A stretch of 45,836 bases of DNA from positions 1 to 45,836 of the IMG/VR virus record IMGVR_UViG_3300020057_000055; one strand, 5' to 3'. The notes beneath the pieces are model-generated. The model saw only the letters and a program-made list of their open reading frames with translations, searched no databases and was not told where the DNA came from. Of this stretch, positions 1,319-36,618 are shown piece by piece. The position numbers and the translations under genes are program-made. The first letter of the stretch is position 1; each line of letters begins with the position of its first letter. Source of the DNA: a virus.

Positions 1319-4132
1319 TTACTTAAGAGCTACAAACTGAGGTAATGTTAGAGGCACTTTCTGTGCTGCGATGGCTGATAATATTGTAGCTTCATCCCCA
1401 GTGATAATGTTCACACCGCCAACTGTTACCACATTTGAAATCATATGGTCTGGTGCGTAGTGGATTGGCCCACCAGTGTAATCTGTAAGTGATGCAGAAA
1501 CTCCAGTCGCATCATCTACAACGTACGCATTGTGGATTATCACCGGATACGCTGGGCCGCTAGTTGTATTCTTTAATTTGAAATCCACGAAACGCAAATT
1601 CACGCCATCGGTAGCAATGATAAATCTGGATTCGTCCACGAGACCGGCATCCGTGGACAGCCAATACGTTTCGTACGCGTAGGCTTTGCGGCCGTCGATG
1701 ACTAGCGTATCAACGCCGCCGTATGCGACGATGGTGCCAGACGCTATTTCCAACCGCATGTTGCTGTCATCAATCGTAAAACCCGTGATCGTTGAGCCAT
1801 CGAACGCGTTGCCGTTGTAGGCTGTGTCTAATACAGCATCGTGCAGGTAACTGACCGCTTTCGCCGCTTCCGTGGTTCCACAAGTGCCAATCAGTTTATC
1901 CACAATAATGTCCGCGCTGGTGCCAACACAGCGCATGATACGTAGACGAATTGAGCGGCTGCCCGACGCTGCTGCTGAGTCTGTCCATGTGTGAGATGCA
2001 GTTCCAGGAACGCCGAGATAGAGCTGCGTCGATGACGTTGCATCGTAAATCTGGATGCGCGCAGTGACTGCCAGTCCGGCGACCGTGACACTCTGAAACA
2101 CCGGCGAGGAGACAAACGTAACGGTAGCACCAGCAGTCTGATGCGTCGGCGTTGCCTGTCCTACTGCAAGATTAACTGTCACCGTTCCAACGGCTGCGGT
2201 TACATCAATGTCTTTCGTGAATCCCGAGAACGTCGTGCTTGCGAGGTCAAACGTTCCCGCCGCCGCGATGCGAATGCCATATAAGCAGGTCGCGCTGGCA
2301 GTCAGGGCTGAACCGGTCGCGCTAAATCCATTGCTAGCACTCAGCGCAGCAGTTCCGGTGCCGTCGCTGATGGTTGCGTTAACAATGTCGGCACCGGCAA
2401 AGGCAATGATGCCACACGTTTTAAACGTAGCGCCCGAACACGGCACTCCGGTTTTCCATGTCGGGTTCCACCCAACAACGGATAATCCTGCGGTGCTAAG
2501 TGCCGCTGATGTTGACGCCGCAGCATCAATAGTCAACGTCTGTTTTGTTGTCGTTACCAGCGCACCCGCAGTTAAATTTATAGTGTCGCTTGCCGAAGGC
2601 TTGATATTCAGCGTGACCGCACCTAACGCGCCAACATTCCACAGTGTCTGTTCAATCAGAGAGTCTGATGGCGTTACTGCATACGTCGGAGGAAACTCCA
2701 ACGAGGACGCACTCATGTCGAAATAAGTTGCGTTTGTTCCGTCTCCAATCTGTATTTTTGTTTTTACGAGGTTCTGTTTTGACCCCTGCAAATTAACCAA
2801 GCCAGTAGCGCCCCACTGATTAAATGCGCGCGGCAAAATCTGGAACGTCGCAGGACGGTTTGCACCGCCGCCAATGATAGATGAACTAAGCCAAAGATAT
2901 GCGTTTCTGATCGAAATAGCGTTCTGACCGGTGGAACTCCCGATCCGGTGTTGCAAGTAAGCCACCGCAGAAACAGTAGTCCAGTCCATCGTGCCGCTGC
3001 TTTGAAGCACGGTAGCCGTCGATATGTCTATGTGCGCTGTGTAATTTACGTTCGCCGCCTCATAGCCAACCCTACGGGCCAAAGTGTAGGCCGCCCAATT
3101 ACCCGTCCCATCCTTAAACACAATAATGTTTCCGCCGTCTCCAAAACGGGCAGCAGAAATAACACCAGCGGAATGCTCGATTGAAAATATCTTGCCAGTG
3201 AAATCAGTCGCAGAGCAGGTGTGCATGGCCCCGCACCACGATCCGGCGGTGTTTTGCGTAAGGTTTATGCTGGATGTAAAACCCCACGCATAACTTAAAC
3301 TGTTGGTTACGACAGATCCAACCGCGGTATTTACCGCAATCCCGTCTATCGTAGCGCCGCCAGTTATTCCATTGGCGGGAGTACCTGAATCGTTTGGCGT
3401 AATCCAGGTAGTCGTGGCGTCGTGCGTAACCCCCCACTCGCCATACCAACGAAATCTGGTTTCACCGGTCAGACAGTCCGGCGCTCTGCTCCCCGACGTG
3501 GCGTTTCTGACCGCGACTACAAAACCATTCCCGCCCTCTGCGGCAGTGGTGCTGTACATCGTAACCGCAGGAATTGTGCTTGCCGCGCCCTGCTGTCTGT
3601 ATCCGGCAATCACAGATACGCCATTGGCTGTCTGCTTGCCTAATTCGATCATGCCCGCTTGATTCGTCCGCATGAACGGACCGCCATCAGAACACCACAT
3701 GAACAGCAGCAGGCAATCGTCCTGCGATGTGGTTATGGCAGACCCCCCATTGCTGGATGCGTCCACGTCAGCGGTCGTGATGCTGCTTAGCAAGTTCCAA
3801 TCAGAGCGCGTCCAGCCATCGACAAACGTTGTCGCGTCGGCGTCTTTTATCACAGTGGCGACATAAACCCACGGGGCGTTGGTCGAACTTGAAATGGTAA
3901 CTGTCTCGGAACCGCTCGCGGCCTTTAGATAAAATACCGCACCTCTGGTCGCGCCGCTTTGCGCCTGCGTTCCTACGCCAGTCCAACTACCCGATGCGGT
4001 TATCGCAGTAGCGCCGTTGTCCTGCGCCACAAAAACGACGATGTAATCCCCGGATACATGCGTAGGAAGTTCAGGGACAAAACTTGTCGCGGCAGTTGCC
4101 GATCCTTCCTTGCTAAATTTTGGGTACGCCAT
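1319..4132 (-). CDS. Tail fibre or tailspike-like receptor-binding protein (fibre 2)
   Basis: 937 aa, rich in Gly, Ala, Ser, Thr and Val with long runs of short beta segments, as in phage fibres and spikes. I see no enzymatic motif. It is last in the structural operon, after the small tail proteins and large internal proteins, a usual place for a fibre. From about 1.6 kb to the start codon the DNA is strongly GC-rich, while the last 80-100 codons match the AT-rich backbone. The receptor-facing body may thus have been replaced while a native C-terminus was kept. The start at 4132 (MAYPKFSKEG) has only a weak G-rich site. A fibre function is inferred from composition and position. Confidence 0.7.
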   Translation of the reverse strand: MAYPKFSKEGSATAATSFVPELPTHVSGDYIVVFVAQDNGATAITASGSWTGVGTQAQSGATRGAVFYLKAASGSETVTISSSTNAPWVYVATVIKDADATTFVDGWTRSDWNLLSSITTADVDASSNGGSAITTSQDDCLLLFMWCSDGGPFMRTNQAGMIELGKQTANGVSVIAGYRQQGAASTIPAVTMYSTTAAEGGNGFVVAVRNATSGSRAPDCLTGETRFRWYGEWGVTHDATTTWITPNDSGTPANGITGGATIDGIAVNTAVGSVVTNSLSYAWGFTSSINLTQNTAGSWCGAMHTCSATDFTGKIFSIEHSAGVISAARFGDGGNIIVFKDGTGNWAAYTLARRVGYEAANVNYTAHIDISTATVLQSSGTMDWTTVSAVAYLQHRIGSSTGQNAISIRNAYLWLSSSIIGGGANRPATFQILPRAFNQWGATGLVNLQGSKQNLVKTKIQIGDGTNATYFDMSASSLEFPPTYAVTPSDSLIEQTLWNVGALGAVTLNIKPSASDTINLTAGALVTTTKQTLTIDAAASTSAALSTAGLSVVGWNPTWKTGVPCSGATFKTCGIIAFAGADIVNATISDGTGTAALSASNGFSATGSALTASATCLYGIRIAAAGTFDLASTTFSGFTKDIDVTAAVGTVTVNLAVGQATPTHQTAGATVTFVSSPVFQSVTVAGLAVTARIQIYDATSSTQLYLGVPGTASHTWTDSAAASGSRSIRLRIMRCVGTSADIIVDKLIGTCGTTEAAKAVSYLHDAVLDTAYNGNAFDGSTITGFTIDDSNMRLEIASGTIVAYGGVDTLVIDGRKAYAYETYWLSTDAGLVDESRFIIATDGVNLRFVDFKLKNTTSGPAYPVIIHNAYVVDDATGVSASLTDYTGGPIHYAPDHMISNVVTVGGVNIITGDEATILSAIAAQKVPLTLPQFVALK

Positions 4133-27874: not shown

Positions 27875-28489
27875 ATGTCAACCATGTATCCAGTAGTTAA
27901 GACTGCCGAAGCAATAGTCAATGAAGGATTGACTACGCTCAATGTAGCGCGCACGGACGGTAAAAAAGGCAAGTCCGGTTCTGTTATCGTAGTGCCGGTC
28001 TTGTCTGATTCTGTCCTGTTCCTGATTCAAGGTGCGGACGTCGGCAAAGCCTTTATCGTTGATGCAATTGACGCCTTGCGTAGTCGTATCGCCAGCAGCA
28101 TCAATAGCAAGGGGAACACCATTACAAGCGATAAGCTTGGCATTGATGCTATCCTTGCAGCAATGAAGCTTGAAACCGAGTCACAGCGGATGACAAAGGA
28201 TTCCATCGGCATTTGGTTTGACGACGACCTGCTGGCGCTGATGAAAGCTAGGTTTGCTGTAAAGCTTCCGGGTATCAGTGACGGTAAGATGGCCGGAATA
28301 ACCTATCAATACCGCTGCAAGTTTCAATCCCTTGCCGGTAGAGATGGATTCATTCCGGACGCTGTTAAGAGTCAATTAGTAACAGCGATGGAGTTACTGC
28401 CAGCCGAGTATGAAAGTGTTATCGGCACTAAACTGCTGGAAAAGCTCACCGCGGTTACCGACGATAGCATGTTGGAATTGCTGGACTAG
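27875..28489 (+). CDS. First early gene, unknown, probably abundant (204 aa)
   Basis: Soluble mixed protein without membrane segments. Notable stretches are the N-terminal Gly/Lys-rich TDGKKGKSGSVIVVPV, the middle SIGIWFDDDLLALMKARFAV and the C-terminal LPGISDGKMAGITYQYRCKF. Codons are richer in G and C than in most neighbours, and the gene is a monocistron with its own promoter-like element and strong downstream hairpins, all signs of high early expression. It shows a weak but extended resemblance to the protein at 35256. AAAGGAATCTATATC precedes the ATG. Function unknown; takeover or DNA-binding roles are possible. Confidence 0.65.
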   Translation: MSTMYPVVKTAEAIVNEGLTTLNVARTDGKKGKSGSVIVVPVLSDSVLFLIQGADVGKAFIVDAIDALRSRIASSINSKGNTITSDKLGIDAILAAMKLETESQRMTKDSIGIWFDDDLLALMKARFAVKLPGISDGKMAGITYQYRCKFQSLAGRDGFIPDAVKSQLVTAMELLPAEYESVIGTKLLEKLTAVTDDSMLELLD

Positions 28490-28497
28490 CAGGAAAT

Positions 28498-28541
28498 TGC
28501 AACGACCTGGGATACTAGAAAATCAATCCCAGGTCGTTGCA
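28498..28541 (+). terminator. Long hairpin after the first early gene
   Basis: A 16-bp perfect stem pairs 28498-28513 with 28526-28541 around a 12-nt loop, 9 bases after the stop codon. No U-tract follows, so it may stabilise or process the mRNA rather than terminate by itself. Confidence 0.65.
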
Positions 28542-28545
28542 TTCT

Positions 28546-28579
28546 AATGGCCAGCCTGAAGAAATTCGGGCTGGCCATT
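28546..28579 (+). terminator. Second hairpin, capped by a GAAA tetraloop
   Basis: A 15-bp stem (one G-U pair) joins 28546-28560 to 28565-28579 with GAAA as loop. It lies 5 bases after the first hairpin and also lacks a U-tract. GNRA loops make very stable RNA ends. Confidence 0.6.
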
Positions 28580-30289: not shown

Positions 30290-30300
30290 AGTTTATATTA

Positions 30301-30334
30301 GATAGTAGCAGATAGTAGCAGATAGTAGCAGATA
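30301..30334. repeat. Tandem 10-bp repeat, 3.4 copies
   Basis: GATAGTAGCA is repeated exactly three times and followed by GATA, just before the ribosome binding site of the next gene. The 10-bp period equals about one helical turn. Confidence 0.85.
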
Positions 30335-35255: not shown

Positions 35256-35984
35256 ATGTTTAAGAAACTTGCTTTCGTATGTAATGATGCAGTTGGAGAA
35301 GAACAGGCAGCACCTGGCCTTGCAGTAGTACCTGTGCAATCTGCTACTGCAATTGCGCAAATCAAAGCACAATTTAATAACAAGATTGATATGGTGGATT
35401 ATAAGTTTCACTTCAAGAAAGATGACCTTGGCAACAAGCGTCAAACTGTTGAATTGAAACTGCCGGTTCCTTCCATTGAAGGTATTGTTGCAATCCTTGA
35501 AAGCACGGATGAAGTATCCGGCCCCAAAGGACGTGAATTGCTGTTGGCTGCTGTTGCTGATATTATCAGTTCACAAGCACGTAACATCCTGAATGACGAA
35601 GCTAACCAAGCGATGAATGCAGCAAGTTTCCCGCTTGACCAAGTAACGTTTGAAGCAATTGCCTTGCTGCCGGATGCCGAGAAGCGTTGCCGTGGTATTG
35701 CCAAGGAAGTGTGGGATGAGTTTGTTAAGGATTACATTTCTATCATGCCTGCAATTACTGGTAAGACTATTGAAGCTGTTAGCTTTGCTGCTAAGCTGTT
35801 GCTTGGTAAGTATAACAGCATCAAAACCAACAAGCCGGTAATCGCCAAGCTGAAGGAACAACTGGCAATCTACACCAACAACTCGCCGCAAGCTGAAACG
35901 TTTTCAGAATGTGTTAAGTTCTTGGATGAGAAAGCTGATTCTCTCATGAAGCTTGACGAATCGGCAATGCTGGCAAACCTGTAA
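35256..35984 (+). CDS. Abundant unknown protein in its own transcription unit (242 aa)
   Basis: Soluble, mostly helical. Landmarks are RQTVELKLPVPSIEGIVAIL, EVWDEFVKDYISIMPAITGK and KYNSIKTNKPVIAKLKEQLA. Codons are enriched for G and C endings relative to neighbours, and the gene is bracketed by a consensus promoter and a strong terminator, so it is probably made in quantity. The last 150 residues can be aligned loosely with the 27875 protein ('F-x-x-D ... P-x-I-S/T-x-G-K ... K-Y/F-x-S ... K-x-Q-L'). Function unknown; a DNA-coating or takeover role would fit. Confidence 0.65.
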   Translation: MFKKLAFVCNDAVGEEQAAPGLAVVPVQSATAIAQIKAQFNNKIDMVDYKFHFKKDDLGNKRQTVELKLPVPSIEGIVAILESTDEVSGPKGRELLLAAVADIISSQARNILNDEANQAMNAASFPLDQVTFEAIALLPDAEKRCRGIAKEVWDEFVKDYISIMPAITGKTIEAVSFAAKLLLGKYNSIKTNKPVIAKLKEQLAIYTNNSPQAETFSECVKFLDEKADSLMKLDESAMLANL

Positions 35985-36005
35985 TATAATTTAATAGTCA
36001 AACCT

Positions 36006-36039
36006 AAAGGGATTACTAGGAAACTAGTAGTCCTTTTTT
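36006..36039 (+). terminator. Strong intrinsic terminator with GAAA tetraloop
   Basis: A 14-bp stem (two G-U pairs) joins 36006-36019 to 36024-36037 around GAAA. T34-T39 of this block give a six-base U-tract. It ends the 35256 transcription unit and overlaps the leader of the next gene. Confidence 0.85.
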
Positions 36040-36041
36040 AT

Positions 36042-36269
36042 ATGCCTACTAAATACTCAACGCAGCACAAAAAGCAATTTGTAGAATACCTGGAAACTGA
36101 AGGTAGATTATACACTGAGCTAGAATGTGCAGCCTATCTTAATACATCCCCTCAGTACATTAACTATCTAATAAAAGAGCATAGCATAGAGCGGCCTATA
36201 AAAACTAAGGCCGATGCTTTTAAATACATTAGAAAGTTACTGGATGAAAAGAATTCCTGCTGTTGTTAA
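36042..36269 (+). CDS. Small putative helix-turn-helix protein with Cys-Cys-Cys end (75 aa)
   Basis: LYTELECAAYLNTSPQYINY with the following LIKEHSIERP looks like a helix-turn-helix (residues about 21-46), and the protein is basic. It starts immediately after the U-tract of the terminator, so its only possible ribosome binding site lies in the terminator stem. It may therefore be read only by transcripts that pass the terminator. The last codons, Asn-Ser-Cys-Cys-Cys, form the 5' arm of a long RNA stem described separately. Possibly a regulator. Confidence 0.5.
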   Translation: MPTKYSTQHKKQFVEYLETEGRLYTELECAAYLNTSPQYINYLIKEHSIERPIKTKADAFKYIRKLLDEKNSCCC

Positions 36270-36349
36270 TGCACTAAACAGCTCTGTATTCAGAGCAACA
36301 AAGGCTTCTAGCCGACGGTAAGATGTAGCTAGCATTGCAGCAGCAGGAA
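36254..36349 (+). promoter_or_regulatory. Long RNA stem covering a ribosome binding site
   Basis: TTCCTGCTGTTGTTAATGC (36254-36272) pairs with GCATTGCAGCAGCAGGAA (36332-36349): 18 pairs with two G-U and one bulge. The enclosed 59 bases fold further into GCTCTG-TATT-CAGAGC (36281-36296) and GGCT-TCT-AGCC (36303-36313). The 3' arm holds the AGGAA that should serve the ATG at 36358, and the 5' arm is the end of the upstream coding sequence. Ribosomes finishing that gene would open the stem. Confidence 0.55.
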
Positions 36350-36357
36350 CCATACTT

Positions 36358-36618
36358 ATGAGCAATCCAACACCACCTAAAATCAGCAGATATTTACCGC
36401 TATGGAATAGATTAAAGACTCATAAAGTCTGTGCAATTACTGCTCACCCTAAATTTCACAAGACAATTATCAAGATGGTAAAGAACCGCAGAGATAAGGA
36501 TTTTGGTTATAGATTTATGCAAGGCGAATTAGGTATAAGAGAACAGATTAAAGCCACAGTAGACGGAAGCATAGTAACCTTTAAACTTAAAAGAATGTAC
36601 GGACTAGGAGATATATAA
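36358..36618 (+). CDS. Hypothetical early protein (86 aa)
   Basis: Basic protein (RYLPLWNRLKTHKVCAITAH, IIKMVKNRRDKDFGYRFMQG) with a C-terminal beta hairpin-like end. Its ribosome binding site is paired in the stem just upstream. Its TAA overlaps the next ATG by one base. No family recognised. Confidence 0.55.
   Translation: MSNPTPPKISRYLPLWNRLKTHKVCAITAHPKFHKTIIKMVKNRRDKDFGYRFMQGELGIREQIKATVDGSIVTFKLKRMYGLGDI

Follow-up and report, generated by a model that had tools for sequence, protein, structure and literature searches.

We found that the intergenic slot upstream of gene 36358 in an uncultivated phage carries a structured RNA element (36254-36349), which on the basis of modelled folds probably acts in cis as a leader that prevents translation of gene 36358 for as long as the closing stem of the leader stays intact. 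The window, that is, the whole stretch of DNA that was analysed, is a 45.8-kb record of this phage and encodes a family-A DNA polymerase, a Dda-like helicase, a PD-(D/E)XK nuclease and a Sak4-like ATPase. From gene 35256 to gene 36358 the slot contains, in order and all on the plus strand, an intrinsic terminator (36010-36039; 10-bp stem, GAAA loop, T6) directly before the ATG of a 75-aa ORF, this ORF itself (36042-36269), and the structured element. A weak possible -10 box (TATAAT, 35985-35990, plus strand, with TCGGCA at 35961) was observed after the stop of gene 35256, and the count of TATAAT-type promoter sites around 35985 was not above that in shuffled sequence. Gene 36358 (36358-36618, plus strand) encodes a small, Lys- and Arg-rich alpha-beta protein of 86 aa that is conserved in the phage group (33 homologues aligned). 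A comparison of its fold with the PDB gave no significant match, and no RNA-binding fold was recognised.

The closing stem of the element, P1, pairs a 5' arm (UUCCUGCUGUUGUUAAUGC, 36254-36272) with a 3' arm (GCAUUGCAGCAGCAGGAA, 36332-36349) through 13 bp, a bulged U (36267) and a further 5 bp, for a total of 18 bp, of which two are G·U on the plus strand. Inside the stem lie a hairpin, P2 (GCUCUG-UAUU-CAGAGC, 36281-36296), and an interrupted hairpin, P3 (GGCUUCUAGCCGACGGUAAGAUGUAGCU, 36303-36330), all on the plus strand. The 18-bp stem enclosing two small hairpins, as given in a preliminary description of this DNA, was thus exact by both sequence and folding. The region 36252-36352 folded at -42.3 kcal/mol compared to a shuffled mean of -24.6 (z -5.72), with none of 200 shuffles as good. 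The end of the 3' arm holds AGGAA (36345-36349, plus strand), the Shine-Dalgarno (SD) of gene 36358, located 8 nt upstream of its AUG at 36358 and buried in P1 with a predicted unpaired probability of 0.055 in the free RNA. The folding prediction therefore agrees with the ribosome-binding-site lock that had been proposed earlier, and such a lock on gene 36358 is likely under this model.

A 100-nt structure scan of the whole window, with GC allowed for, placed 36254-36349 among the six strongest structured places. The places that scored higher include a repeat within coding sequence and a double hairpin at 28498-28579, the most structured place in the window, where two near-perfect hairpins (16 bp with a 12-nt loop, and 15 bp with a 4-nt loop) lie just after gene 27875-28489. 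Another feature observed in the window was an intergenic perfect 10-bp tandem repeat at 30300-30334 (AGATAGTAGC, 3.5 copies). The P1 arms alone were unremarkable, with a score of 29, while Markov-shuffled sequence gave 43 stems of at least 25 and 5 of at least 30 per 737 kb, so that chance would give roughly one stem with arms of this quality in every one or two windows. It is the combination of the arms, the inner hairpins and the exact placement on the start site that carries the weight of the evidence. A chance fold, or a feature of the DNA with no regulatory role, would be in keeping with the frequency of such arms and with an exact stem known from a single genome. We regard it as very unlikely given the z value of -5.7 obtained with the inner hairpins, the placement on the SD, and the analogous leaders in the same slot of relatives, which as a family have a plus-strand G-U bias (see below).

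Readings of the element as an integron attC site (judged by eye), a transcription terminator or a tRNA were considered, and we found no features in support of any of them. A covariance model built from the window element as a single sequence found no further copies. Hairpins that hide a start site have been described for T4 I-TevI and Aeh1 mobE, where a late promoter yields the translated transcripts, and sequestration of the ribosome-binding site by a hairpin was also described for T4 soc, e, 25 and 26 (PMC2988022). The window element is similar to these hairpins in that a stable stem of a phage transcript initiated upstream is predicted to bury the ribosome-binding site of a small downstream gene, with the AGGAA of the read-through transcript at the low unpaired probability given above. 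By analogy with this documented precedent, read-through transcripts could hide the start while later transcripts, begun at an internal promoter, would be without the 5' arm and would be translated, and the terminator upstream of the element fits with separate transcription units. Such a temporal switch is unlikely in our estimation, as no sigma-70-like promoter was observed inside 36254-36349 in a promoter scan that would miss phage-specific promoters. The endonuclease genes of T4 and Aeh1 combine an SD with a late promoter giving hairpin-less late transcripts, whereas in the window no such promoter was seen and the structure is a three-way junction. Also unlike these cases, relatives of the window have SD-less starts and a conserved core.

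The 5' arm of P1 carries the final codons of ORF 36042 (UCC UGC UGU UGU UAA, encoding Ser-Cys-Cys-Cys-stop), and the bulged U of P1 is the first base of its UAA stop, which at 36267-36269 lies within the sequestering arm. From this layout the preliminary description had read a translational-coupling switch in which translation of the upstream gene opens the stem. Opening of stems by translation is known to couple genes in other phages, e.g. the MS2 lysis and replicase genes, and the window resembles this type in that its upstream ORF has its stop within the arm by which the next start is hidden. With a ribosome on the stop of ORF 36042, the computed unpaired probability of AGGAA rose from 0.055 to 0.47 and the cost of opening the docking region fell from 18.9 to 6.3 kcal/mol, which makes it energetically plausible, within the model, that a ribosome terminating there would open P1. 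The ORF was also coding-like in its codon usage, with a codon score of 0.144 that falls within the range of in-frame segments (minimum 0.10, mean 0.24) and compares to a maximum of 0.078 for off-frame segments. The predicted product is helical and an orphan, with no homologue found by tblastn in any locus fetched, a weak match to phrog_14131 'DNA binding' (E 0.004), and a structure model from the single sequence of low confidence (pLDDT 56). Because the ORF has no SD and lies behind the terminator, with its ATG 2 nt after the T-run, its own translation appears doubtful.

It is possible, although we hold it to be doubtful, that coupling specific to this phage is the reason for the stem, such that gene 36358 would be made only when ORF 36042 is translated. 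The position of the stop in the 5' arm, the computed exposure of the SD and the coding-like ORF all speak for this reading, while the missing SD and homologues of ORF 36042 speak against it, as do the nearest relative, which keeps a junction without the ORF, and the observation of an SD-led ORF running into the stem in only 1 of 31 analogous leaders of relatives. Since this arrangement was found in 1 of 31, coupling is not the general mode of the leader family described below. The window departs from the MS2 type in that its upstream ORF lacks both conservation and an SD, and relatives with a comparable leader do not have it. The coupling proposal therefore stood for the stop inside the arm and the energetics and did not stand as a conserved function, for which the alternative also raised earlier, a structured RNA with an additional function, was the better fit. 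The suggestion that Cys supply could matter was unsupported. The sequence of the three Cys codons is complementary to the CAGCAGCAGGAA arm, and the folds computed for the free RNA of the window element showed neither an alternative fold that would depend on Cys nor one forming another terminator or an anti-SD pairing.

Pattern scans with the single sequences of ORFs 36042, 36358 and 35256 gave zero direct homologues, and relatives were gathered using conserved neighbours as bait, namely the polymerase (55 loci) and an alignment of the Sak4-like ATPase (80 loci). All of the comparison sequences are metagenomic contigs and are partly redundant. Several relatives also carry terminators in the slot equivalent to 36010-36039, and in one (L276) the terminator runs directly into the ATG of the 36358 homologue, which has no SD. 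In L251, the nearest relative, the 36358 homologue is 65% identical and the slot of ~155 bp contains no ORF like 36042. The optimum fold of the L251 leader was a three-way junction reaching up to the AUG, closed by a P1 of GAUGCAAU/AUUGCAUC, with an ordinary fold energy (z -0.4). The distance from P1 to the AUG was 8 nt in both the window and L251, and a stretch, ATGTAGCTxGCATTGCA, was common to both at the same place before the gene. Pieces of the window element present in L251 were the 3' part of P3 (AUGUAGCU) and a segment within the 3' arm of P1 (GCAUUGCA). The sequence match between the two is modest, with 24 of 2000 shuffles as good, and is positionally consistent. The P1 of L251 is without the outer 10 bp, the part that hides the SD in the window, and the start in L251 has no SD. 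Based on the junction, the common stretch and the 8-nt spacing, the window and L251 appear to form a separate class of two members. Since L251 has a comparable junction without a 36042-like ORF, the three-way junction appears older than the overlap with ORF 36042, and the SD-hiding extension of P1 may be specific to the window. We make no claim of covariation for the exact window stem, because L251 alone shares the fold and the outer 10 bp are absent there.

In many relatives the slot holds a structured RNA family, for which we identified 31 members (e.g. L026 4147-4228, L020 302-383, L293 169-268). A script found 30 of these and none in shuffled sequence, and the 31st (L007) came from a separate scan. 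The plan of the family, from 5' to 3', is P1, a 3-bp helix, GUAAY, hairpin P3, RUC(A/U)A(A/U)G, the second strand of the 3-bp helix, AAA, an optional hairpin P4 and P1'. P1 is 18-22 bp long and free, or hypervariable, in sequence, and the 3-bp helix occurs as CUG/CAG, AUG/CAU, AAC/GUU and AUC/GAU, while the core GUAA...UCAAWG...AAA is nearly invariant as the helices drift. The analogous leaders of relatives showed overwhelming evidence of compensatory change. A first alignment of 16 sequences, made without structure and anchored on the conserved core, had two-sided changes in 18 of 19 P1 pairs and a covariation of 0.66, compared to 0.19 when shuffled and at most 0.13 when slid. A larger trimmed alignment of 29 sequences, whose rows were cut where the helix-seeking script chose and which thus leans towards structure, had two-sided changes in all 27 modelled pairs, with 95.5% of cells paired and a covariation of 0.92, against 0.21 for the shuffled and no more than 0.19 for the slid alignment. 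The first, structure-free alignment is the cleaner test of covariation. G·U oppositions in P1 outnumbered A·C oppositions 42 to 12, which suggests that the family is a plus-strand RNA.

In seven members the distance from the start of P1' to the AUG is exactly 15 nt, and in two more it is 16 and 17 nt, which places nine start codons within P1, and several others were at 31-32 nt, just outside P1. Two members (L093 5669-5761 and L102 5236-5331, the latter on the minus strand) were observed outside the usual slot, upstream of another gene, whose AAAGG SD pairs with the base of P1. Because the AUGs are in or beside P1, and the SD is paired in these two members, the family appears to be a leader in which the start signal is either covered by the closing stem or lies directly next to it. 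Rfam 15 gave no match, at gathering or permissive thresholds, in the window or in the 15 relatives tested. The family resembles phage and metagenome motifs of Rfam 15 in being a covarying cis-regulatory RNA upstream of a gene, but unlike those families, none of which reached its gathering score in these sequences, it is newly recognised and absent from Rfam. It was not found in the regions read of the nearest isolates, chosen by polymerase and ATPase (Polaromonas phage Tiera, Aeromonas phage P5 and Pseudomonas phage PaMx41). A DNA search in isolated phages, and a literature search on the conserved core letters or on this phage RNA, returned nothing relevant.

Two other readings bear on these features. 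Opening of phage leaders by RNase III is established for T7 and lambda (lambda N), and the leaders described here are similar in that a long, irregular helix precedes the start site of a phage gene. The host enzyme could cut the 18-22 bp helix and free the SD or AUG, and may leave a near-leaderless message. Processing of this kind would serve all members and would suit a helix whose length is kept by compensatory change while its sequence is free, as well as the many downstream genes that have no SD and whose AUG lies within the helix at the constant position +15. We rate it as rather unlikely, as it leaves the invariant GUAA / UCAAWG / AAA core of the relatives' family unexplained; in contrast to the T7 and lambda N leaders, those of the relatives contain a conserved core for which RNase III would have no use. 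The near invariance of this core as the helices drift could instead point to a regulator that binds a ligand or protein at the core, either riboswitch-like or through autoregulation by the small, Lys/Arg-rich 36358 protein. This we hold to be quite improbable, for ordinary ligand switching could not overcome the stability of a closing stem of at least 18 bp, that core is missing from the window element, and the 36358 protein has no recognised RNA-binding fold.

The window element has the long closing stem of the family before the 36358 start, with its 18-bp P1 ending 8 nt before the AUG. The GUAA/UCAAWG/AAA core with its 3-bp helix was absent from the window element in a script scan, and membership in the family was rejected when two covariance models, run with filters off, gave no match at 36254-36349. 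A circularly permuted or flipped core gave no convincing match by eye. The L251 slot element was also missed by the family covariance model, whose sole match there, at 1495-1538, was the preceding hairpin. In its position and architecture the window element thus appears to parallel the family, while lying outside the family's model. A more speculative and unlikely proposal is a single superfamily, with the window element as one branch and the 31-member family as another, in which a constant spacing of 15 nt between core and AUG sets how an SD-less gene is initiated, e.g. because the RNA cleaves itself, because RNase III trims it to a leaderless message, or because it recruits the ribosome directly.

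Several other motifs were observed in relatives. A second small hairpin motif, CC-U-[5 bp]-UGAUGUAAAAC loop, was observed at 32 places on the sense strand (e.g. L008 3365, L292 1323, L304 1199), compared to two in a reversed-sequence control. Its stem covaries (GGACA/UGUCC, GAGCA/UGCUC, GGGCA/UGCCC, GAACA/UGUUC, GAUCA/UGAUC), and it often precedes the leader-family core by 48-67 nt. A possible further structured RNA in the same slot, with the common pieces GTAGTTAG(ATA) and GTATCTAGCCG, was observed in L048 (~2745-2895), L054 (~690-850) and L313 (~1660-1990), and the slot RNA of L054 and L313 had no Rfam match. In L308, L309 and L286, the slot before the 36358 homologue holds a large RNA-like stretch closed by a long stem and not in Rfam, which in L308 and L309 starts with GTGTGCATTGG and ends near CAGTGTGCA or CAGTGTACA. 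The upstream part of the slot in L304, L308, L289 and L286 contains a recurring ATCACRTRAAAACTGGT ... GTAAGA.ACTCCCT, perhaps another RNA motif. Genes that by eye are HNH homing endonuclease-like were inserted in the slots of L027 (~3166-3597) and L053 (~2789-3226), in the latter directly downstream of the leader-locked start codon.

The start regions of 36358 homologues were compared with those of six neighbour genes (69 distinct start contexts). An SD of four or more bases was found in 14% of 36358 homologues versus 34-79% for the neighbour genes, and in 41% versus 4-24% most of the region from -20 to +3 was paired with upstream RNA. The Mann-Whitney p-values were 5e-4 for start-region pairing and 2e-7 for unpairedness, and are optimistic since related contigs are not independent. 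The contrast between gene 36358 and its neighbours is large despite this. The conserved feature therefore appears to be the 36358 gene with an SD-poor, upstream-paired start, rather than ORF 36042 or coupling.

From the fold, the burial of the SD, the conserved slot, the family covariation in relatives and the family-wide loss of the SD, all found by computation, we infer repression by the window leader, its opener and its purpose. Our preferred model is a three-way junction closed by a long stem with the SD within its 3' arm, such that in the full-length transcript gene 36358 would be translationally off until P1 is opened. This arrangement would be recurrent, with the 36358 gene of the phage group often following a long-stemmed leader RNA whose closing stem has the start signals in or next to it. 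The likeliest opener in the window phage, and the simplest for this phage, would be a ribosome finishing ORF 36042 inside the 5' arm. Some relatives are without a 36042-like ORF, and therefore something else must open their stem; candidates would be cleavage of the 18-22 bp helix by RNase III, transcription from a start within it, or a bound factor.

Leaders that hide a ribosome-binding site were previously known singly in model phages, while here the 36358 gene family appears to keep such a leader across a diverse group of uncultivated phages. If the superfamily proposed above were true, a superfamily of phage leader RNAs would govern how an SD-less gene is initiated. These leaders offer a testable system for how phage genes without a Shine-Dalgarno, and with the start codon in a stable helix, may be started.
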